The notes beneath the pieces are model-generated. The model ran no database searches. It was not told the origin of the DNA and saw only the letters and a program-made list of their open reading frames with translations. The position numbers and the translations under genes are program-made. From Curvibacter sp. (GTDB taxonomy: Bacteria > Pseudomonadota > Gammaproteobacteria > Burkholderiales > Burkholderiaceae_C): DNA of 64,000 nucleotides. Position 1 is the stretch's first letter, and each line of letters opens with the position of its first letter. Below are positions 2,262 to 52,235 of the stretch, in pieces. The stretch is from contig JAHRYV010000001.1 in NCBI GenBank assembly GCA_020621965.1, forward strand, positions 1 through 64,000. The letters run 5' to 3'.

Positions 2262-3744
2262 ATGAGCACCCCCAAACTCGTCCAGGGCTACGAAGTCGTG
2301 ATCGGCTTCGAGACACACGCCCAGCTCTCCACCCAGAGCAAGATCTTCAGCCGCGCTTCGGTCGCTTTCGGCGCCGAGCCCAACACCCAGGCCTGCGCCG
2401 TGGACCTGGCCCTGCCCGGCACGCTGCCGGTGATGAACGTGGGCGCGGTCGAGCGCGCCATCCGCTTCGGCCTGGCCATCGGCAGCACCATCGCGCCGCG
2501 CAGCATCTTTGCGCGCAAGAACTACTTCTACCCCGACCTGCCCAAGGGTTACCAGATCAGCCAGTTCGAGATCCCGGTGGTGCAGGGGGGCGAGGTGTCC
2601 TTCTTCCTCGGTGACGAAAAGAAGACCGTGCGCCTGGTGCGCGCCCACCTGGAAGAGGACGCCGGCAAGTCGCTGCACGAGGACTTCATCGGCCAGAGCG
2701 GCATCGACCTCAACCGCGCCGGCACGCCGCTGCTGGAGATCGTGACCGAACCCGACATGCGCTCCATGACGAGGCTGCCTACGCGCGCAGCACACAAGAT
2801 CGTGACCTGGATCGGCATCTGCGACGGCAATATGCGGAAGGAGCTTTCGCTGCGACGCCAACGTCTCGGAAAACCCGGCCAGCCCCTGCACACGGCGCGA
2901 GATCAAGAACCTGAACAGCTTCAAGTTCATGCAGCAGGCCATCGACTACGAGGCGCGCTGGCAGATCGAGCAGATCGAGGACGGCCACGCCATCCAGCAG
3001 GCCACCGTGCTGTTCGACCCCGACACCGGCGAGACGCGCGCCATGCGCACCAAGGAAGACGCGGCCGACTACCGCTACTTCCCCGACCCGGATCTGCCGC
3101 CGCTGGTGATCGGCGCCGACTGGGTGGAGCGGGTGCGGGCCGAGCTGCCCGAACTGCCGCGCGCCATGGCGCAGCGCTTCGTCACGGACTACGGCCTCTC
3201 GGAATATGACGCGACCACGCTAACGCAAAGCAAAGGTATCGCGAGCTATTTCGAAAAAGCAGCCAAAGCGAGTCAGCAGCCGAAGCTGGCAGCCAATTGG
3301 GTCACCAACGACGTGCGTCGCTTCATGACAGAAGGCGCACGTGATGAAGAAGGCGAACCGGTCGCAAGCCAAGTCCGGGAAGGCGGCCCCGGCAGTGAAG
3401 TCATTCGCGTGTCTGCCGAAGCTCTCGCGAAGATCATCACGCGCATCACGGACGGAACCATTTCGAATGCCGGCGCCAAGAAAGTCTTTGGCGAGCTTTG
3501 GACAAGCACGTCCGATGATGTTGATTCAGTGATTGAACGTCTGGGCCTCAAGCAGATGAACGACAGCGGCGCGCTGGAGCAGATCATCGACGAGGTGATC
3601 GCGGCCAACCCCGACAACGTGGCGCAGTTCAAGGCCGGCAAGGACAAGGCCTTCAACGCGCTGGTGGGTCAGGTCATGAAGGCCAGCAAGGGCAAGGCCA
3701 ACCCGCAGCAGGCGGGTGATCTGCTGCGCAGCAAACTGGCGTAG
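2262..3744 (+). pseudogene. gatB: Asp-tRNA(Asn)/Glu-tRNA(Gln) amidotransferase subunit B, frame-disrupted as sequenced
   Basis: GatB is the kinase/transamidase subunit of GatCAB. The N-terminal half (from ATG 2262, [20 protein letters not shown]) reads well to about 2765. The family sequence then moves between frames: DEAAYARS is in another frame, [14 protein letters not shown] returns to the first, and from about 2830 the expected [22 protein letters not shown] and FMQQAIDYE segments need several single-base corrections and one small deletion. From about 2925 the second frame is clean to the stop at 3744. About 3215-3545 also differs in composition from its flanks and encodes an atypical linker before the YqeY-like tail domain. 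GatCAB is normally essential where GlnRS or AsnRS is missing, so sequencing or assembly error is the first explanation; real decay is the alternative. Confidence 0.85.
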
Positions 3745-13732: not shown

Positions 13733-14604
13733 CATGGCCGACGCGCAGGTGCCCCCGCACTGGCGGCTTGCGCCCGCGCGTACAGCGGCAACACCTTGGG
13801 CAGGTTCTGCTCGATCTCGGCGATGCGGCTCTGGCCCGAGGGATGGGTCGAGAGCCATTGCGGCGGCGCGCCCTTGCTGGCGGCGCTCATCTTGCGCCAC
13901 AGCGTGACGCCGGCGCGCGGGTCGTAGCCGGCGCGCGCGGCCAGCTCCAGCCCCACCAGATCGGCCTCGGATTCGTCGCCGCGGCTGAAGCTCAGTACCG
14001 CCAGATCGGCGCCGCCGCGCGCCACGGTGTCGGTCAGGCGCGGATCCACACCCAGCCAGGCCGACAGCACGGCGCCGCCCACGCGGGCCACGCCCTGGGT
14101 CACGGCGCCCTTGCCCATGCGTTCGCGCGCGTGCTCGCGCAAGGCGTGGGCGATCTCGTGACCCATGACCATGGCCACCTCGTCGTCGGTGAGTTTCAGC
14201 TGATCGAGGATGCCGGTGTAGAAGGCGATCTTGCCGCCCGGCATGCAGTAGGCATTGATCTGGGAGGAGCCGATCAGGTTCACCTCCCACTGCCACTCCC
14301 GGGCGCGCGGATTCCAGGCCTGGGCGTGCGGGATGAGGCGCTCGGCAATCGCGCGCAGGCGCTGCAGCTGCGGGTGGTCCTTCGGGGCCAGGGCACGTTT
14401 CTCGGCCGCCTTCTTCAGCTGCTGGCGATACTGTTGCAGGGCCAGCTGCTCGACCTCGGCCGCCGGCTTGAGCTTGGTGAACACCGAATTGCCGCCCACG
14501 TCCACCCCCTCGCGCGCGGGCGCGGCCGAACTGCCGGCCGCCAGCAGCAGGCCGATCAGCAGGGTGGCAACAGGGCGCGACAGCAGTGGTTTTGGATCTT
14601 TCAT
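13732..14604 (-). CDS. M48-family zinc metalloprotease, periplasmic
   Basis: A 290-residue protein of the M48 family that includes the HtpX/BepA/LoiP-type proteases of envelope quality control. It has an N-terminal signal or anchor (LLIGLLLAAGSSAAPA, about residues 13-28), the zinc-binding HEIAH near residue 148 and the third ligand Glu in DESEADLVGLELAARAGYDP. There are no TPR repeats, so it is LoiP/YcaL-like rather than a full BepA. ATG 14604 starts just before the signal sequence; an upstream in-frame ATG adds a non-signal-like tail. It is divergent from the AmpG-like gene, with about 41 bp between starts. Confidence 0.87.
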   Translation of the reverse strand: MKDPKPLLSRPVATLLIGLLLAAGSSAAPAREGVDVGGNSVFTKLKPAAEVEQLALQQYRQQLKKAAEKRALAPKDHPQLQRLRAIAERLIPHAQAWNPRAREWQWEVNLIGSSQINAYCMPGGKIAFYTGILDQLKLTDDEVAMVMGHEIAHALREHARERMGKGAVTQGVARVGGAVLSAWLGVDPRLTDTVARGGADLAVLSFSRGDESEADLVGLELAARAGYDPRAGVTLWRKMSAASKGAPPQWLSTHPSGQSRIAEIEQNLPKVLPLYARAQAASAGAPARRP

Positions 14605-14645
14605 CGGTACAGAGGCAGGCGACGGGCTGCGCTTATTATTCCCGC

Positions 14646-15986
14646 ATGACCTCAAGTGCGCCCGAAACGACCCAACCCAAGCCCTCGGCGCGCCCGTCCT
14701 GGGGCACCACTCTGCGGGTCTACCTCGAGCCGCCGACCCTGCGCATGCTGGCGCTGGGTTTTGCCGCCGGCCTGCCGCTGCTGCTGGTGCTGGGCACGCT
14801 GAGCTTTCGCCTGCGCGAGGCCGGCATCGACCGCGCCACGATCGGCCACCTGAGCTGGGTCGGCCTGGCCTACGCCTTCAAGTGGGCCTGGGCCCCGCTG
14901 GTGGACCGGCTGCCGCTGCCCGGCCTGACACGCTGGCTGGGCCTGCGCCGCAGCTGGCTGCTGCTGTCGCAGGGCGCCATCATGGTCGGGCTCGTCGGCA
15001 TGGCCTGGTCCGACCCGCAGCAGGGACTGCAGGCGGTGGTCTGGTGCGCCTTGCTAGTGGCCTTTGCCTCAGCCACCCAAGACATCGCGCTGGACGCCTT
15101 TCGCATCGAGTCGGCCGGTGCCGAGCGCCAGGCCGCGCTGGCGGCGGCCTACCAGACCGGTTACCGCATGGCCATGATCTGGGCCGGCGCCGGCGTGCTG
15201 TGGCTGGCCGCGCGCGCCGAGGTCGCCGCCGGCGGCTACCAGAACGCCGCCTGGCAGCTGGCCTACCTGGTCATGGCCGCGAGCATGCTGCCGGGCGTGC
15301 TGACCGTGCTGTGGTCCTCCGAGCCGGCGCGGCGCGAGCTGCCGCCCGCGCGCAATCTGGCCGAGTGGCTGCAGGGCGCTCTGGTCGAGCCCTTTGCCGA
15401 CTTCGTGCGCCGCTACCGCTGGCAGGCGGCCCTGGTGCTGGGGCTGATCGCCGTCTACCGCATCAGCGACGTGGTCATGGGCATCATGGCCAACCCCTTT
15501 TACGTCGACATGGGCTACACCAAGGACGAGGTGGCCGCCGTGACCAAGGTCTACGGCGTGATCATGACGCTAGTGGGCGCCTTCGTCGGCGGCGTGCTGG
15601 CCATGCGCCTGGGCGTGATGCGCGTGCTGTTGCTGGGTGCCGCCCTCAGTGCGGCCAGCAACCTGCTGTTCGCCTGGCTGGGCACACGCGGGCACGACCT
15701 CACGGCGCTGATCTTCGTCATCGCGGCTGACAATCTCTCCTCCGGCATCGCCTCGGCAGCCTTCATCGCCTACCTCTCCAGCCTCACCAACATCAGCTAT
15801 TCGGCCACGCAGTACGCGCTGTTCAGCTCCATGATGCTGCTGGCGCCCAAGTTCATCGCCGGCTTCTCGGGCGACTACGTCAACGCCTACGGCTACAGCC
15901 ATTTCTTCGTCTCCACCGCCCTGCTGGGCCTGCCGGTGCTGCTGCTGGTGGTGCTGGCTATGCGGGTCCACGCCCGCCCCGCCTGA
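14646..15986 (+). CDS. ampG: AmpG-like MFS permease (muropeptide uptake type)
   Basis: A 446-residue, roughly 12-helix inner-membrane transporter. The start of the transmembrane region (MLALGFAAGLPLLLVLGTLSFRL), the SWVGLAYAFKWAWAPLVDRL loop and the QDIALDAFRIES motif match the AmpG family, which imports anhydro-muropeptides for cell-wall recycling. The symbol is by family resemblance. It is followed after about 90 bp by a two-component pair that may be separately transcribed. Confidence 0.85.
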   Translation: MTSSAPETTQPKPSARPSWGTTLRVYLEPPTLRMLALGFAAGLPLLLVLGTLSFRLREAGIDRATIGHLSWVGLAYAFKWAWAPLVDRLPLPGLTRWLGLRRSWLLLSQGAIMVGLVGMAWSDPQQGLQAVVWCALLVAFASATQDIALDAFRIESAGAERQAALAAAYQTGYRMAMIWAGAGVLWLAARAEVAAGGYQNAAWQLAYLVMAASMLPGVLTVLWSSEPARRELPPARNLAEWLQGALVEPFADFVRRYRWQAALVLGLIAVYRISDVVMGIMANPFYVDMGYTKDEVAAVTKVYGVIMTLVGAFVGGVLAMRLGVMRVLLLGAALSAASNLLFAWLGTRGHDLTALIFVIAADNLSSGIASAAFIAYLSSLTNISYSATQYALFSSMMLLAPKFIAGFSGDYVNAYGYSHFFVSTALLGLPVLLLVVLAMRVHARPA

Positions 15987-31403: not shown

Positions 31404-32878
31404 CTACTGTGATCAACCACCTCATCAACGGCCAGCCCGTCAGCGGCACCGACTACTTCGAGACCGTCAACCCGGCCACGCAGGAGGTGCTGGCCGAGGT
31501 CGCCGCCGGCGGCGCCGCTGAAGTGCACGCCGCCGTGGCCGCTGCCAAGGACGCGTTCCCGAAGTGGGCCGGCCTGCCCGCCCCCGAACGCGCCAAACTG
31601 ATGCGCAAGCTCGGCGACCTGATCGCTCAGCACGTGCCCGAGATCGCGCGCACCGAGACCGACGACACCGGCCAGGTCATCGCCCAGACCGGCAAACAAC
31701 TCGTGCCGCGTGCCGCCGACAACTTTTATTACTTCGCCGAGATGTGCACGCGGGTGGACGGCCACACCTACCCCACGCCCACCCACCTGAACTACACCCT
31801 GTTCCACCCGGTGGGCGTGTGCGCGCTGATCAGCCCCTGGAACGTGCCCTTCATGACGGCGACCTGGAAGGTGGCGCCGGCCCTGGCCTTCGGCAACACG
31901 GCCGTGCTCAAGATGAGCGAACTCTCGCCGCTGACCGCTGCCCGCCTGGGCGAACTGGCGCTGGAAGCCGGCATCCCCGCCGGCGTGCTCAACATCGTGC
32001 ACGGCACCGGCCGCGAAGCCGGCGAGCCGCTGTGCGCCCACCCCGACGTGCGCGCCATCTCCTTCACCGGGTCGACGGCCACCGGCAACCGCATCGTCAA
32101 GGCGGCGGGCCTGAAGAAGTTCAGCATGGAGCTGGGCGGCAAGAGCCCCTTCGTGATCTTCGACGACGCCGATCTGGAGCGCGCGCTCGATGCCGCGGTC
32201 TTCATGATCTTTTCCAACAACGGCGAACGCTGCACCGCGGGCAGCCGCATCCTGGTGCAACAGAACATCTACGCCGACTTCGTGCAGAATTTTGCCGAGC
32301 GCGCCAAACGCATCACCGTGGGCGACCCGCAGGATGAGCAGACCATCATCGGCCCGATGATCAGTCAGGCCCACCTGGCCAAGGTGCGCAGCTACATCGA
32401 GCTCGGGCCCAAGGAAGGCGCCACGCTGGTCTGTGGCGGGCTGGACCGCCCGAGCTACGCGCCGGCACTGCCGGCGCGCGTGCAAAGGGGCAACTACATC
32501 TGGCCCACGGTCTTTGCCGACGTCGACAACCGCATGCGCATCGCGCAGGAGGAAATCTTCGGTCCCGTGGCCTGCCTGATCCCCTTCAAGGACGAGGCCG
32601 ATGCGATCAGCAAGGCCAACGACATCCCCTACGGCCTGAGCAGCTACGTCTGGAGCGAGAACCTCGGCCGCGCCCACCGCGTCGCTGGCGCCATCGAGGC
32701 CGGCATGTGCTTCGTCAACAGCCAGAATGTGCGGGACCTGCGCCAGCCCTTCGGCGGCACCAAGGCCAGCGGCACCGGCCGCGAGGGCGGCACCTGGAGC
32801 TACGAAGTCTTTCTGGAGCCCAAGAACGTGGCCGTCTCGCTTGGTTCACATCACATCCCACATTGGGGAAGGGCATGA
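31400..32878 (+). CDS. hpaE: 5-carboxymethyl-2-hydroxymuconate semialdehyde dehydrogenase
   Basis: A 492-residue NAD-dependent aldehyde dehydrogenase that oxidises the ring-cleavage product CHMS to CHM. Motifs: SPWNVPFMTATWKVAPAL, FTGSTATGNRIVKAAG, catalytic Glu in MELGGKSPF near 244-252, catalytic Cys in NNGERCTAGSRI near 285, and EEIFGPVACLIPF. The terminal SHHIPHWG is typical of HpaE. The last bases are part of a 10-bp hairpin (32865-32889). Confidence 0.94.
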   Translation: MTTVINHLINGQPVSGTDYFETVNPATQEVLAEVAAGGAAEVHAAVAAAKDAFPKWAGLPAPERAKLMRKLGDLIAQHVPEIARTETDDTGQVIAQTGKQLVPRAADNFYYFAEMCTRVDGHTYPTPTHLNYTLFHPVGVCALISPWNVPFMTATWKVAPALAFGNTAVLKMSELSPLTAARLGELALEAGIPAGVLNIVHGTGREAGEPLCAHPDVRAISFTGSTATGNRIVKAAGLKKFSMELGGKSPFVIFDDADLERALDAAVFMIFSNNGERCTAGSRILVQQNIYADFVQNFAERAKRITVGDPQDEQTIIGPMISQAHLAKVRSYIELGPKEGATLVCGGLDRPSYAPALPARVQRGNYIWPTVFADVDNRMRIAQEEIFGPVACLIPFKDEADAISKANDIPYGLSSYVWSENLGRAHRVAGAIEAGMCFVNSQNVRDLRQPFGGTKASGTGREGGTWSYEVFLEPKNVAVSLGSHHIPHWGRA

Positions 32879-32889
32879 CGCCCTTCCCC
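32865..32889 (+). repeat. Perfect 10-bp hairpin over the hpaE stop codon, with C-rich spacer
   Basis: GGGGAAGGGC (32865-32874), loop ATGAC, GCCCTTCCCC (32880-32889). The loop contains the hpaE stop. The following 75 bp (CTCACCCCAACCC, then CCCTCCCC...GAGGG) has the look of an interspersed REP-like repeat. No T-tract follows, so it is more likely an mRNA-processing or partial attenuation structure inside the operon than a terminator. Confidence 0.65.
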
Positions 32890-32965
32890 ACCAGGGGTGT
32901 AATGACGCTCACCCCAACCCGACCCTCCCCTTCCAGGCGAGGGCCAAGAGTCCAGGAGACCGCCC

Positions 32966-33889
32966 ATGGGTAAGCTCGCACTGGCCGCCAAGATCACTCA
33001 TGTGCCCTCGATGTACCTGAGCGAGCTGCCCGGCCCGCGCCAGGGCACGCGGCAGGATGCGATCGACGGCCACAAGGAGATCGGCCGGCGCTGCCGCGAA
33101 CTCGGCGTGGACACCATCGTGGTGTTCGACACGCACTGGCTGGTCAACGCCAACTACCACGTGAACTGCGCGCCGCATTTCAAGGGCCTGTACACCAGCA
33201 ACGAGTTGCCGCATTTCATCAGCAACCTGGCCTACGAATTCCCGGGCAACCCGGCGCTGGGCCAGCTGCTGGCGAAAGTGTGCACAGAGCACGGCGTGGA
33301 GACCCTGGCCCACCCGGCCACCACGCTGGCGCCGGAGTACGGCACCCTGGTGCCCATGCGTTACATGAACGCGGACCAGCACTTCCGGGTGATCTCGGTC
33401 TCGGCCCTGTGCCAGGTGCACTACCTCCACGACAGCGCGCGCCTAGGGTTTGCCATGCGCCGCGCGGTGGAAGAGCATTACGACGGCACGGTGGCTTTCC
33501 TGGCCAGCGGTTCGCTCAGCCACCGCTTTGCGCAGAACGGGCTGGCACCCGAATACGCCTTCAAGATCTGGAGCCCGTTCCTGGAAACGCTGGACCGGCA
33601 GGTGGTGCAGATGTGGCGGCAGGGTGACTGGCCGGCCTTCTGCGAAATGCTGCCCGAGTACGCCAGCAAGGGCCACGGCGAAGGTTTCATGCACGACACC
33701 GCCATGCTGCTGGGCGCGCTGGGCTGGTCCGAGTACACGGGCCAGGCCGAGATCATCACCCCCTACTTCGGCGCCTCCGGCACCGGCCAGCTCAATGCCG
33801 TGTTCCCGGTGCTGCCGGTCCAGGGCCACGCCATCCCGGCGGCCCAGGCATCTAGTGCCGAGGGCTATCGCGCCTTTCCCCGGCTCTGA
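32966..33889 (+). CDS. hpaD: 3,4-dihydroxyphenylacetate (homoprotocatechuate) 2,3-dioxygenase
   Basis: A 307-residue class III (LigB-type) extradiol dioxygenase that opens the aromatic ring of homoprotocatechuate using Fe(II). Visible: [15 protein letters not shown] at the start, [16 protein letters not shown] near 50-65, THxx-type His residues, [12 protein letters not shown] near 176-187 and [19 protein letters not shown]. It is the only gene of the operon separated by a sizeable gap (87 bp, with the hairpin). Confidence 0.93.
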
Positions 33890-33900
33890 AAGAGAACACC

Positions 33901-34326
33901 ATGCCCCACCTCGTCATCCTCTACACCGGCAACCTGGAAAAAGAGACCGACATGACAGCGCTGTGCCGCAGCCTGGCCGACGTGATGCTGGAACAGCAGG
34001 ACGAGAGCGGCCAGCAGGTCTTCCCCCCCGGCGGCACGCGTGTGCTGGCCTACCCGGCCGCGCACTACGCGGTGGCGGACGACGGCAGCGCCGGCCGGGC
34101 GGCGGGCGGCAACGGCGACTACGCCTTCGTCTACCTCAACCTGCGCATGGGCCGCGGCCGCTCGTCCGCCGTCCACAAGCGCGTGGGCGACGCGCTGCTG
34201 ATGGCCACCAAGGCGCATTTCCAGCCCGTGTTCTCGCAGCGCCATATCGGCGTGACGCTGCAGATCGACGAAGGCCCGGAGGTGTTCGACGCCAAACACA
34301 GCAATCTGCACCCCTTGTTCAAATGA
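33901..34326 (+). CDS. hpaF: 5-carboxymethyl-2-hydroxymuconate delta-isomerase
   Basis: A 141-residue tautomerase-superfamily protein with the expected N-terminal [13 protein letters not shown]: after Met removal, Pro1 is the catalytic base. It converts CHM to its keto isomer, between HpaE and HpaG. The segment [17 protein letters not shown] and the C-terminal [15 protein letters not shown]-like end fit the family. Four-base overlap with hpaH. Confidence 0.9.
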
Positions 34327-35144
34327 GCGCCTTCAGCCCCGAACTCACCCGGCAACTGGCCGCCGAGCTGCAGCAGGCGCAGGACACGCGCACGCAGCTC
34401 GAACATTTCTCCAAGCGTTTTGCCGGCATGAGCATCGAAGACGGCTACCGCGTCAGCCGCGCCTGGGTGGCGTTGCAGCTGGCCACCGGGCGCCAGGTCA
34501 TCGGCCACAAGATCGGCCTGACTTCGCGTGCCATGCAGCAGTCCAGCCAGATCGACGAACCCGACTACGGCACCCTGCTCGACTCCATGCTCTACACCTG
34601 CACACCGGGCCGGGTACTGGACATCCCGGCCGCGCGTTTCATCGCGCCGCGCGTGGAAGTGGAGCTGGCCTTCGTGCTCAAGGCGCCGTTGCAGGGGCCG
34701 AACGTCACGCTGGAGCAGGTGATCGCCGCCACCGACTACGTGACCCCGGCCATCGAGATCATCGACGCGCGCATCGAGCAGTTCGACCGCCATACGAAAG
34801 TCATGCGCAAGGTCTACGACACCATCAGCGACAACGCGGCCAACGCCGGCATCGTGGTCGGCGCCCAGCGGGCCGACCCGAAGCGCATCGACCTGCCCTG
34901 GGTGGGCGCCATCCTGCGCGTCAACGGCGTGGTGGAGGAAACCGGCCTGGCCGCCGGCGTGCAGGGCCACCCGGCCATCGGCATCGCCTGGCTGGCCAAC
35001 AAACTGGCGCCCTGGGGCGAGCATCTCGAAGCCGGGCAGATCGTGCTGGCCGGCTCCTTCACGCGCCCGGTGCCGGCCAGGGCCGGTGATCTGTTCGAGG
35101 CCGACTACGGCCCCCTGGGTCAACTCAACTTCAGATTCACATGA
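34323..35144 (+). CDS. hpaH: 2-oxo-hept-3-ene-1,7-dioate hydratase
   Basis: A 273-residue hydratase of the MhpD/HpaH family that adds water to the dienol before aldol cleavage. Motifs: [31 protein letters not shown], the metal-binding [11 protein letters not shown] near 98-108, and [15 protein letters not shown]. Starts inside the hpaF stop (ATGA) and ends four bases into hpaI. Confidence 0.93.
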
Positions 35145-35953
35145 AAACACCGACGAATCTTTTCAAACAAGCCATTGCCAAGCAGCAGCCGCAGATCGGC
35201 CTGTGGGTCAACCTGGGCCACCCCGTCAGCACCGAGATCTGCGCCGGCGCCGGTTTCGACTGGCTGCTGCTCGACGCCGAGCATTCGCCCAACACCCTGC
35301 CCACGCTGCTGTCGCAGTTGCAGGTGGTCGCGGCTTATCCCGGCACACACGCGGTAGGCCGCGTGCCGCTGGGCCACGGCGAGGCCGGCACGGCCATCAT
35401 CAAGCAGTTCCTGGATCTGGGCTTCCAGACCCTGCTGGTGCCCATGGTGGACACGGCGGCACAGGCCGCGGCCCTGGTGCAGGCCATGCGCTACCCGCCC
35501 GAGGGCGTGCGCGGCATGGCCGGCGCGCGCGCCGCGCGCTGGGGCCGTTACCCCAACTACGGCCGGGAGGCCAACGAGCAGGTCTGCCTGCTGGTGCAGG
35601 CCGAGTCGCGCACCGCGCTGGACAACCTGGAAGCCATCGCCAACACGCCCGGTGTGGACGGCGTGTTCATCGGCCCGGCCGACCTCTCGGCCTCGCTGGG
35701 CCACGTCGGCCAGGCCACGCATCCTGACGTGCAGGCCGCCATCACCGATGCCATCCGCCGCATCGTCAAGTGCGGCAAAGCCGCTGGCATCCTGGTCAGC
35801 GACGAGGCGCTGGCGCGCCACTACCTGGCCCTGGGCGCCAGCTTCGTCGCCGTCGGACTGGACACCCAGATCCTGGTGCGCCAGACTTCGGCGCTGGCCG
35901 CGCTGTACAAGGGCGACGTCCAGCCGCTGGCCGCCGGCGACAAGACCTATTGA
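35141..35953 (+). CDS. hpaI: 4-hydroxy-2-oxoheptanedioate aldolase
   Basis: A 270-residue class II (metal-dependent) HpcH/HpaI aldolase that releases pyruvate and succinate semialdehyde, closing the pathway. Motifs: [26 protein letters not shown] near 41-52, [14 protein letters not shown] near 100, [14 protein letters not shown] and [12 protein letters not shown] with the metal ligands. It overlaps hpaH by four bases. Confidence 0.94.
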
Positions 35954-49922: not shown

Positions 49923-51149
49923 TCAGGGCCGCGCCAGCGCCTCGTCCAGCAGCTCCACCCAGTGCTTGACCGGCGTGCCGGTGCCGCTTTGCAGATGCGT
50001 GATGCAGCCGATGTTGGCCGAGACAATTTGCTCCGGCTGCATCTCGCCCAGGTTCTTGAGCTTGCGGTCGCGCAGTTCGTAGGCCAGCTTGGGATTGAGC
50101 ACGGAGTAGGTACCGGCGGAGCCGCAGCACAGGTGCGGCTCGACGCGGCAGGTCTGCACCTTGAAGCCGAGTTCGCCCATGTACCTCTCCACGCCGCCGC
50201 GCAACTGCTGGCCGTGCTGCAAGGTGCAGGGCGGGTGGAAGGCAATCTGGCCCGCCTTCGCGCTCACCTTGCCACGCAGCTGGTCGACCAGTTCGGGCAG
50301 CAGCTCGCTCAGGTCTTTCGTCAGGTCACTGATGCGCTGGGCTTTGGCGGCGTAGGCCGGATCGTCCTGCAGGATGTGGCCGTATTCCTTGACGGTGACA
50401 CCGCAGCCGGAGGCGTTCATGACGATGGCTTCCACGCCGGCCTCGATGTGCGGCCACCAGGCGTCGATGTTGGAGCGCATCTCGGCCTTGCCGCCGTCCT
50501 GGTCGTTGAGGTGGAACTTCACGGCGCCGCAGCAGCCGGCCTTGGCGGCCACGATGGTCTGCAGGCCGGCGGCGTCGAGCACGCGCGCCGTCGCCGTGTT
50601 GATGTTGGGCATCATGGCCGGCTGCACGCAGCCGGCCAGCATGAGCACCTTGCGCGCGTGGCTGCGTGTGGGCCAGGCGCCGGCGTTCTGCGCCGCGGGC
50701 ACCTTGGCCTTGAGGCTGGCCGGCATGAGACCGCGCACCAGCTGGCCCATCTTCATGGCCGGGCTGAACAGCGGCGAGGTCAGGCCCTCTTTCAGCGCCC
50801 AGCGCACGAAACGCTCGCCGGCCGGGCGCGCCACTTTCTCGTCCACGATCTTGCGGCCGATGTCGACCAGATGGCCGTAGGCCACGCCCGAGGGGCAGGT
50901 GCTTTCGCAGTTGCGGCAGGTGAGGCAGCGGTCCAGGTGGGCCTGGGTCTTGCGCGTGGGCGCCTGGCCCTCGAGCACCTGCTTGATCAGGTAGATGCGG
51001 CCGCGCGGGCCGTCGAGCTCGTCGCCGAGCAGCTGGTAGGTGGGGCAGGTGGCGGTGCAGAAGCCGCAGTGCACGCACTTGCGCAGGATGGCTTCGGCCA
51101 CGCGGCCGTCGGCCGTGTTCTTGAATTCGGGCGCGAGATTGGTTTGCAT
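49923..51149 (-). CDS. glcF: Glycolate oxidase iron-sulfur subunit
   Basis: A 408-residue subunit that carries electrons from the GlcD flavin to the respiratory chain. Two 4Fe-4S motifs are present: CVHCGFCTATCPT near residues 25-37 and CLTCRNCESTCPSG near 75-88. The two C-terminal CCG domains read AKAGCCGAVKFHL and EPHLCCGSAGTYS. It follows glcE by 6 bp. Confidence 0.93.
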   Translation of the reverse strand: MQTNLAPEFKNTADGRVAEAILRKCVHCGFCTATCPTYQLLGDELDGPRGRIYLIKQVLEGQAPTRKTQAHLDRCLTCRNCESTCPSGVAYGHLVDIGRKIVDEKVARPAGERFVRWALKEGLTSPLFSPAMKMGQLVRGLMPASLKAKVPAAQNAGAWPTRSHARKVLMLAGCVQPAMMPNINTATARVLDAAGLQTIVAAKAGCCGAVKFHLNDQDGGKAEMRSNIDAWWPHIEAGVEAIVMNASGCGVTVKEYGHILQDDPAYAAKAQRISDLTKDLSELLPELVDQLRGKVSAKAGQIAFHPPCTLQHGQQLRGGVERYMGELGFKVQTCRVEPHLCCGSAGTYSVLNPKLAYELRDRKLKNLGEMQPEQIVSANIGCITHLQSGTGTPVKHWVELLDEALARP

Positions 51150-51155
51150 GACGGC

Positions 51156-52235
51156 TTAGAAATCGGGGTACAGGCGGCCGCGGTTGAAGATGGCGGCCGG
51201 GTCGAACTGCTTTTTCAGTTCGCGCGAGATGCGCTCCAGCGGCGCGCCCAGCGGGGTGAAGACGCCGGCGCTCTTGTCCGTTGTGCGAAACAGCGTGGCG
51301 TGGCCGGAGTTGCCGGCCAGCAGGCGGCCCAGATCGGGGCGCTGCGCTTGCGCCAGCTTGAGCCAGCGCTGGGCACCGTGCCATTCGATCAGGGTGGGGC
51401 CCAGGTTCAGCGGCGCCGTGGTGTCGGGCACGCTCAGGCGCACCAGCGACTCGCCCGCGGCCAGCTGGAAGAAGGGCGCGGTCTGTTCGCGCAGGGCGTT
51501 CCACAGCAGCGTGGCCTGGCCGTCGTCCATGACCTGGCCGCCCATGGTTTTCTTGGCCGCGGCAATGGCGGCCTGGGCGCCGCGCAGGCGCACCGTGAGC
51601 CGGCCGTCCTGCCAGCAGGAGGCGTTGAGGGGCAGGGGCTGGGCGCCCCAGGCGTTGAGCTGCTTGAGCGCGCTGGCTTCGTCGAGCTCGAAGACGAGGG
51701 TGGCCTCGGCCACGGCGCGTGGCAGCACCTTGAGCGAGACCTCGACGAGGAGCCCGAGGGTGCCCATGGAGCCGGCCAGCAGGCGCGAAACGTCGTAACC
51801 GGCCACGTTCTTCATGACCTGGCCGCCGAAGGTGAGCAGCTCGGCGCGGCCGTTGAGCAGCTGGGCGCCCAGCACGTAGTCGCGCACGGCACCCACGCTG
51901 GCGCGCGCCGGGCCGTTCAGGCCGGCGGCGACCATGCCACCCGCGGTGGCCATGGCGCCGCCCGCGGCGAAATGCGGCGGCTCAAAGGGCAGATACTGGC
52001 CGCGCTCGGCCAGCACTTCCTCCACCTCGGCCAGCGAGGTGCCGGCGCGCACGGTGATGACGAGTTCGCTCGGTTCGTAGCTGACGATGCCCTGCAGCGG
52101 CCGGGTGTCGAGCACCTCACCCTGCAGGGACTGGCCGTAGAAATCTTTGCTGCCGCCGCCGCGCAGGCGCAGCGGGGTGCCGGTCGAGGCGGCCTGACGC
52201 ACGCGCTCGACGATGTTTTGCAGGGCTGTATCCAT
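51156..52235 (-). CDS. glcE: Glycolate oxidase FAD-binding subunit
   Basis: A 359-residue FAD-linked protein of the glycolate oxidase complex, which oxidises glycolate to glyoxylate. The PCMH-type FAD-binding motifs are LRLRGGGSKDFYGQ near 22-35, YEPSELVITVRAGT and the VKNVAGYDVSRLL-like segment QVMKNVAGYDVSRLLAGSMG near 139-158. ATG 52235 gives the usual length. In many genomes the order is glcD-glcE-glcF; here glcD is not directly upstream, where amtB is found behind a terminator. Confidence 0.92.
   Translation of the reverse strand: MDTALQNIVERVRQAASTGTPLRLRGGGSKDFYGQSLQGEVLDTRPLQGIVSYEPSELVITVRAGTSLAEVEEVLAERGQYLPFEPPHFAAGGAMATAGGMVAAGLNGPARASVGAVRDYVLGAQLLNGRAELLTFGGQVMKNVAGYDVSRLLAGSMGTLGLLVEVSLKVLPRAVAEATLVFELDEASALKQLNAWGAQPLPLNASCWQDGRLTVRLRGAQAAIAAAKKTMGGQVMDDGQATLLWNALREQTAPFFQLAAGESLVRLSVPDTTAPLNLGPTLIEWHGAQRWLKLAQAQRPDLGRLLAGNSGHATLFRTTDKSAGVFTPLGAPLERISRELKKQFDPAAIFNRGRLYPDF

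Follow-up and report, generated by a model that had tools for sequence, protein, structure and literature searches.

Why would a gene for a core translation enzyme change its composition and its nearest relatives for a few hundred bases and then change back? The question is raised by gatB in the window, the 64-kb stretch of DNA analysed here, which lies on contig C70 of a 3.04-Mb genome in 82 contigs that is 86% complete (hereafter W). The first-pass annotation of this DNA placed a low-GC patch inside the gene at 3215-3545 and offered two readings of it, an in-gene replacement from another lineage or a chimeric contig.

The patch and its host gene

The gene spans 2262-3744 on the forward strand, follows gatC and gatA (gatC being named by place and sequence), and occupies a single place in the source genome. 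Judged from its sequence, the product is GatB, the predicted amidotransferase subunit for Asp-tRNA(Asn)/Glu-tRNA(Gln). The gene is divided into an ORF at 2262-3209 and an overlapping one at 2929-3744 by small gaps near 2766-2890, where about 14 bases present in the genus mate G015 are absent as at least eight small gaps; this frame break is probably an error of the consensus sequence, unless it is a true lesion. The Pfam models GatB_N and GatB_Yqey score above their curated cut-offs on the two ORF pieces, and the NCBIfam whole-protein GatB model gives the pieces 290 and 318 bits, missing its cut-off of 414 because each is partial. In the neighbouring gene, gatA at 1068-1110 is 24 bases longer than its G015 counterpart, in frame, and the surrounding stretch is poorly alike.

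The outer limits of the low-GC, foreign-type segment are 3214-3546 (forward strand, as for all features here), where sliding identity shifts at both edges and GC3 is 0.59 against 0.94 in the flanks. The segment corresponds to residues 96-205 of the fragment encoded from 2929 onward and to about residues 319-428 of the G015 protein, which is intact at 497 residues. In the protein, the catalytic cradle and the YqeY-like tail are separated by the helical domain, most of which falls within the segment. The upstream flank, 2929-3213, is native in type and holds the end of the cradle domain and the start of the helical region, with about 89-91% nucleotide identity (over 2900-3213) to G013, G018, G015, and G024. 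The downstream flank, 3547-3741, is likewise native, encodes the YqeY-like tail recognised by GatB_Yqey, and has about 90-93% identity to the same four genomes. Against the standard-type relative G013, the sharpest low-identity block runs from 3256 to 3543 (nucleotide identity 44% inside, 90% outside, z 14), so that the patch as first proposed ends exactly at the right edge and begins about 40 bases too early on the left.

GC content is 56.1% in the patch and 69.8% and 64.6% in the flanks, and counted by codon, GC3 is 64/109 in the patch and 150/159 in the flanks (p 1e-12). The hand counts of the first pass (44, 33, 35, 27, and 40 G+C of 60 in the lines beginning at 3061, 3241, 3301, 3481, and 3601) were exact, and the change of codon choice that it saw at the edges is borne out: the ratio of GAA, AAA, CGT, and GAT to GAG, AAG, CGC, and GAC is 20:9 within 3217-3543, as against 6:37 in the flanks (Fisher p 3e-6). 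Across the whole window, 100-codon windows have a mean GC3 of 0.90 (sd 0.066). When the lowest such value is taken for each of the 53 high-GC3 ORFs in the window, gatB (0.59) ranks third lowest, and the two ORFs below it (0.46 and 0.47) have their low stretches at the 5' end, where they look out of frame by eye. We judge the gatB patch to have the lowest 100-codon GC3 of the genes taken to be real in the 64 kb. The change of -0.35 from flank to patch is also the largest drop among 143 GatB rows (mean -0.046, sd 0.067), counted after duplicate removal and with 21 loci yielding no row.

The encoded linker is, as first suspected, longer than expected, by 16 residues relative to standard-type GatB. 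The extra loop lies approximately at 3349-3396, opposite a 16-residue gap in the standard-type rows, and pLDDT is below 50 at 3364-3396. In the predicted model of the fragment (mean pLDDT 74, pTM 0.58), confident helices flank the loop, which falls at fragment residues 146-156. A Foldseek search with this model, the N-terminal part of which is poorly modelled, gave 13 matches at E up to 0.001, all of them GatB chains (TMq 0.36-0.58). The patch aligns with the helical domain in the helical/YqeY tRNA-anchoring region described for GatCAB and GatFAB (PMC4027206; PDB 4wj3, 3al0, 3h0l), both flanks align with their counterparts, and the model retains the helices; unlike the aligned PDB chains, the patch carries a flexible insertion and a sequence type absent there. 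For yeast GatB, the helical and YqeY domains have both been modelled on the tRNA D-loop, and activity is reported to be lost in mutants without the YqeY domain or without both domains (PMC4027206). A review describes the tail domain of GatB as touching the tRNA elbow (PMC4810234). Insertions of about 19 residues (L027, in G020) and about 17 residues (L191, in G1284) occur elsewhere in the GatB helical region.

Carriers of the segment and conflicting trees

Within the genus, the patch allele of W (hereafter W-type) is present in 2 of 26 genomes, W and G015. A query with its 86-residue core (3286-3543, aligned with G015, G419, and G863) scores 142 bits in G015 and 44 in the next genome, with three genomes giving no match at E 0.001. 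G015 is a 4-contig genome, in which the W-type stands in frame on a 3.6-Mb contig, and the 271-residue query matches 813 bases there at 87% identity. The only other carrier in a family draw of 399 genomes is G419, from another genus (65% identity over 108 residues, 133 bits; next 74); no other carrier is among the 5 genomes of that genus. A draw of 399 genomes from the order added G863 from another family (68% identity), the single carrier among 158 genomes of that family (core query 116 bits, next 38.5). Wider sampling, with 398 genomes drawn from the phylum and 274 from the class, yielded no further W-type carrier; the four draws overlap.

The carriers bear directly on the chimeric contig that the first pass had allowed for. 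The assembly does have frame faults, with 6 of 43 G015 ORFs, gatB included, matching the window in more than one frame, and this gives an assembly artefact some initial appeal. Yet a segment of the same length stands in frame in G015, and a near-equal one stands in frame in the 10-contig genome G863, and this rules out an assembly join in the window's contig as its origin; the chimera is refuted, and we leave an artefact of any kind practically no probability. The other multi-frame places are 1-409, 14231-15920, 32707-33886, 34161-35284, and 49929-51504, and these five ORFs may represent frame faults or differences in start site.

The patch is lower in GC3 than its flanks in all four hosts, at 0.59 and 0.94 in W, 0.70 and 0.89 in G015, 0.61 and 0.82 in G419, and 0.40 and 0.81 in G863. 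The four patches differ by 16-45% in protein, share the 16-residue insertion, and are invariant at 55 of the 109 window residues. It might be supposed that relaxed constraint alone lets the helical domain evolve quickly, its low GC3 reflecting lost codon adaptation and the likeness of the carriers convergence, and the region is indeed the least conserved part of gatB in standard types, pairs of which diverge more there. We find this very hard to credit given the common insertion and the many invariant residues, as well as the identity between W and G863, which at 67% in the patch equals the flank level despite their different families. The sharp block edges in one pair of sister genomes, described below, also count against it.

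When patch and flanks are compared separately, they do not have the same close relatives. As far as about residue 96, W runs near eight standard-type genus mates; it is distant from them to about residue 205 and then near again, whereas its identity to G863 follows the opposite course, rising over residues ~96-205. The nearest relatives of the flanks are standard-type genus mates, and those of the patch are G015, G863, and G419. Trees of 54 rows chosen from 171 conflict accordingly: patch columns (77) unite W, G015, G419, and G863 with support of 100, whereas flank columns place each carrier among its own kin, which needs four changes. Forcing the four together is rejected on the flank columns (AU p 6e-42), and in a set of 28 rows the patch columns reject placing carriers with their own kin (p 7e-13 for W and G015, 0.003 for G863, and 3e-6 for G419). 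The gene thus has the marks of a mosaic, namely differing nearest relatives, a contrast in composition, and defined edges within conserved sequence. The in-gene replacement from another lineage that the first pass proposed is supported by these differing relatives and the uneven GC, and we consider it very probable that the patch is an allelic replacement, part of a repeated domain exchange by homologous recombination between conserved anchors.

The distance between the four copies shows that the type is old, and no donor appeared in the genome draws, both of which would fit an ancient, order-wide allele that survives as a rare polymorphism after loss from most lineages, with no import at all. 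Carriers as sparse as 2 of 26, 1 of 5, and 1 of 158 would nonetheless call for very many independent losses, and the patches depart from the GC3 of their host flanks in the same direction in all four hosts, which together make this account improbable.

Allelic replacement also raises the question of how often the segment entered the genus of the window. A tree built on 4.3 kb from 13 of the 26 genus genomes, with the patch excluded, pairs G015 with G013 (100/100) and places W with G002, G024, and G025 (98/98); W and G015 as sisters are rejected (AU p 1.5e-64). Since the two are not sisters, there were either two entries into the genus or a single one followed by back-replacement in other members. 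Synonymous divergence between W and G015 is higher in the patch (dS 1.14) than in the flanks (0.37 and 0.33), and we considered this as an argument for separate acquisition but do not regard it as conclusive, since this region is the more divergent one in standard-type pairs too: their difference at third positions between flank and patch averages 0.15 and reaches 0.29, with W and G015 at 0.25.

Atypical helical domains in other gatB genes

Other atypical low-GC3 segments are found in this domain in the genus mates G007 (L023), G023 (L015), G020 (L027), and G006 (L018). Hydrogenophaga taeniospiralis (L068), which lies outside the genus, has one there as well. With W, G015, and G419, these make up the eight largest GC3 drops among the 143 rows. 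G017 (L014) has the first half of the domain in common with G006, although its GC3 is not low; in G113 (L121) and G012 (L011) it is the second half that is atypical, and the drop is milder. The cleanest case of recurrent exchange is that of the sister genomes G003 and G007, whose gatB genes are 95.3% identical outside and 52.9% identical inside a 342-bp block with sharp edges. These edges strongly indicate a replacement in G007; in the remaining atypical cases a replacement is only likely. Taken with the W-type, the atypical versions in genus mates suggest that the helical domain has been replaced repeatedly.

Pairwise comparison places this variation in one part of the protein. Among 13 genus genomes, with W entered as its 271-residue part, a block at or below 55% identity occurs in 51 of 78 pairs for GatB and in 6 of 78 for the GatA control. 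In the top 12 GatB pairs listed, all such blocks fall within residues 309-444 of G015. The top three of the six GatA pairs involve residues ~21-96 of G003 (L233), at 9-16% identity; outside these residues its gatA has about 81-82% identity to three genus mates, and the stretch may reflect either a faulty reading frame or a further replacement. Where the flanks of genus pairs are at least 85% identical, the patch is at or below 55% in 47 of 123 (20 members, 190 pairs), and in 79 rows of named records this holds for 44 of 677 pairs, 39 of which involve H. taeniospiralis. Across 83 loci, GC3 dips of -0.20 or lower occur in 2 gatA and 5 gatB genes, and at -0.15 the counts are 9 and 13. The deepest of these dips lie in the gatB helical region, and the gatA dips are milder. 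The broken gatB of the window kept it out of this set.

Two of these segments were each compared with 125 genomes drawn from the order: the best matches of the G007 segment reached 49-50% identity (G176 and G162, both of the window's family), and the best match of the H. taeniospiralis segment reached 32 bits and 34% identity. Since relatives of these two segments were not found, replacement has been demonstrated for the W-type only.

Source, mechanism, and precedents

Under allelic replacement, DNA from a lower-GC bacterium would have been taken up and exchanged with the resident gatB by homologous recombination in the conserved sequences that border the domain, the end of the cradle and the start of the tail serving as anchors. 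Most of the helical domain would thereby be exchanged and a longer loop gained, leaving native flanks and a frame open across both junctions. At least three branches of the order would have received this segment type in gatB, namely the window's genus, the genus of G419, and the family of G863. The exchanged domain most likely survives because it tolerates variation that the flanks do not, as we propose. A more far-reaching reading, which we hold to be doubtful though worth stating, is that the helical domain is an exchange hot spot, with a pool of low-GC alleles swapped across genera and families and kept by selection and not by chance uptake alone. The selective agents may then be escape from something that acts on GatCAB or the tuning of tRNA recognition and translation fidelity; in mycobacteria, mutations in GatCAB have been reported to bear on translational fidelity (PMC8406222).

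A donor with the segment in its native context was not seen in the family, order, phylum, and class draws, and all four carriers look like recipients. As no donor was found, the source is deduced from GC alone: the pool looks low in GC, and we infer a donor GC3 of about 0.4 or less. A phage, plasmid, or viral source was considered and ruled out, as the best matches in plasmids and phages have about 30-35% identity, the level of ordinary GatB, and two scans of IMG/VR gave zero relatives of the segment.

Mosaic penicillin-binding protein genes are a familiar result of intragenic recombination in transformable bacteria. Mosaic aminoglycoside resistance genes have likewise been attributed to intragenic recombination (PMC4437187), and interspecies recombination at core loci has been described in pneumococci (PMC8321556). 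Like the mosaic genes of transformable bacteria, gatB has a few hundred bases swapped in frame between native flanks, with conflicting trees and foreign composition. Unlike them, it encodes a tRNA amidotransferase subunit under no evident drug selection, its exchange partners belong to different genera and families, and it is the same domain that is struck repeatedly. In Wolbachia, gatB is a typing gene that also undergoes recombination (PMC8571607); judging by titles and the openings of abstracts, that exchange is among Wolbachia strains and does not extend to a domain exchanged across families. Among the top-ranked open-licence papers in literature searches there was no recognisable report of sub-gene exchange in gatB outside Wolbachia typing. 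Intragenic mosaics are of a known kind, and what is unusual here is that one domain of a translation enzyme is affected recurrently and that one allele occurs in different families.

Mosaic genes are familiar under drug or immunity selection, but here they affect a core enzyme of translation; what is exchanged is a single tRNA-anchoring domain, of which one allele is shared across families. Should selection be the driver, GatCAB would be under some pressure in nature. A practical caution is that gatB is not a purely vertical marker in this group.

A mobile element, intron, or intein at the site was also considered and set aside, as the split gatB genes of the genus mates G005 and G011 contain no inserted element. 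In G011 (L240, L241), two contigs terminate inside gatB at a conserved stretch. G005 (L239, L230) has two unmerged, overlapping gatB contigs that are 92.8% alike, and the assembly probably represents a mixture of strains.
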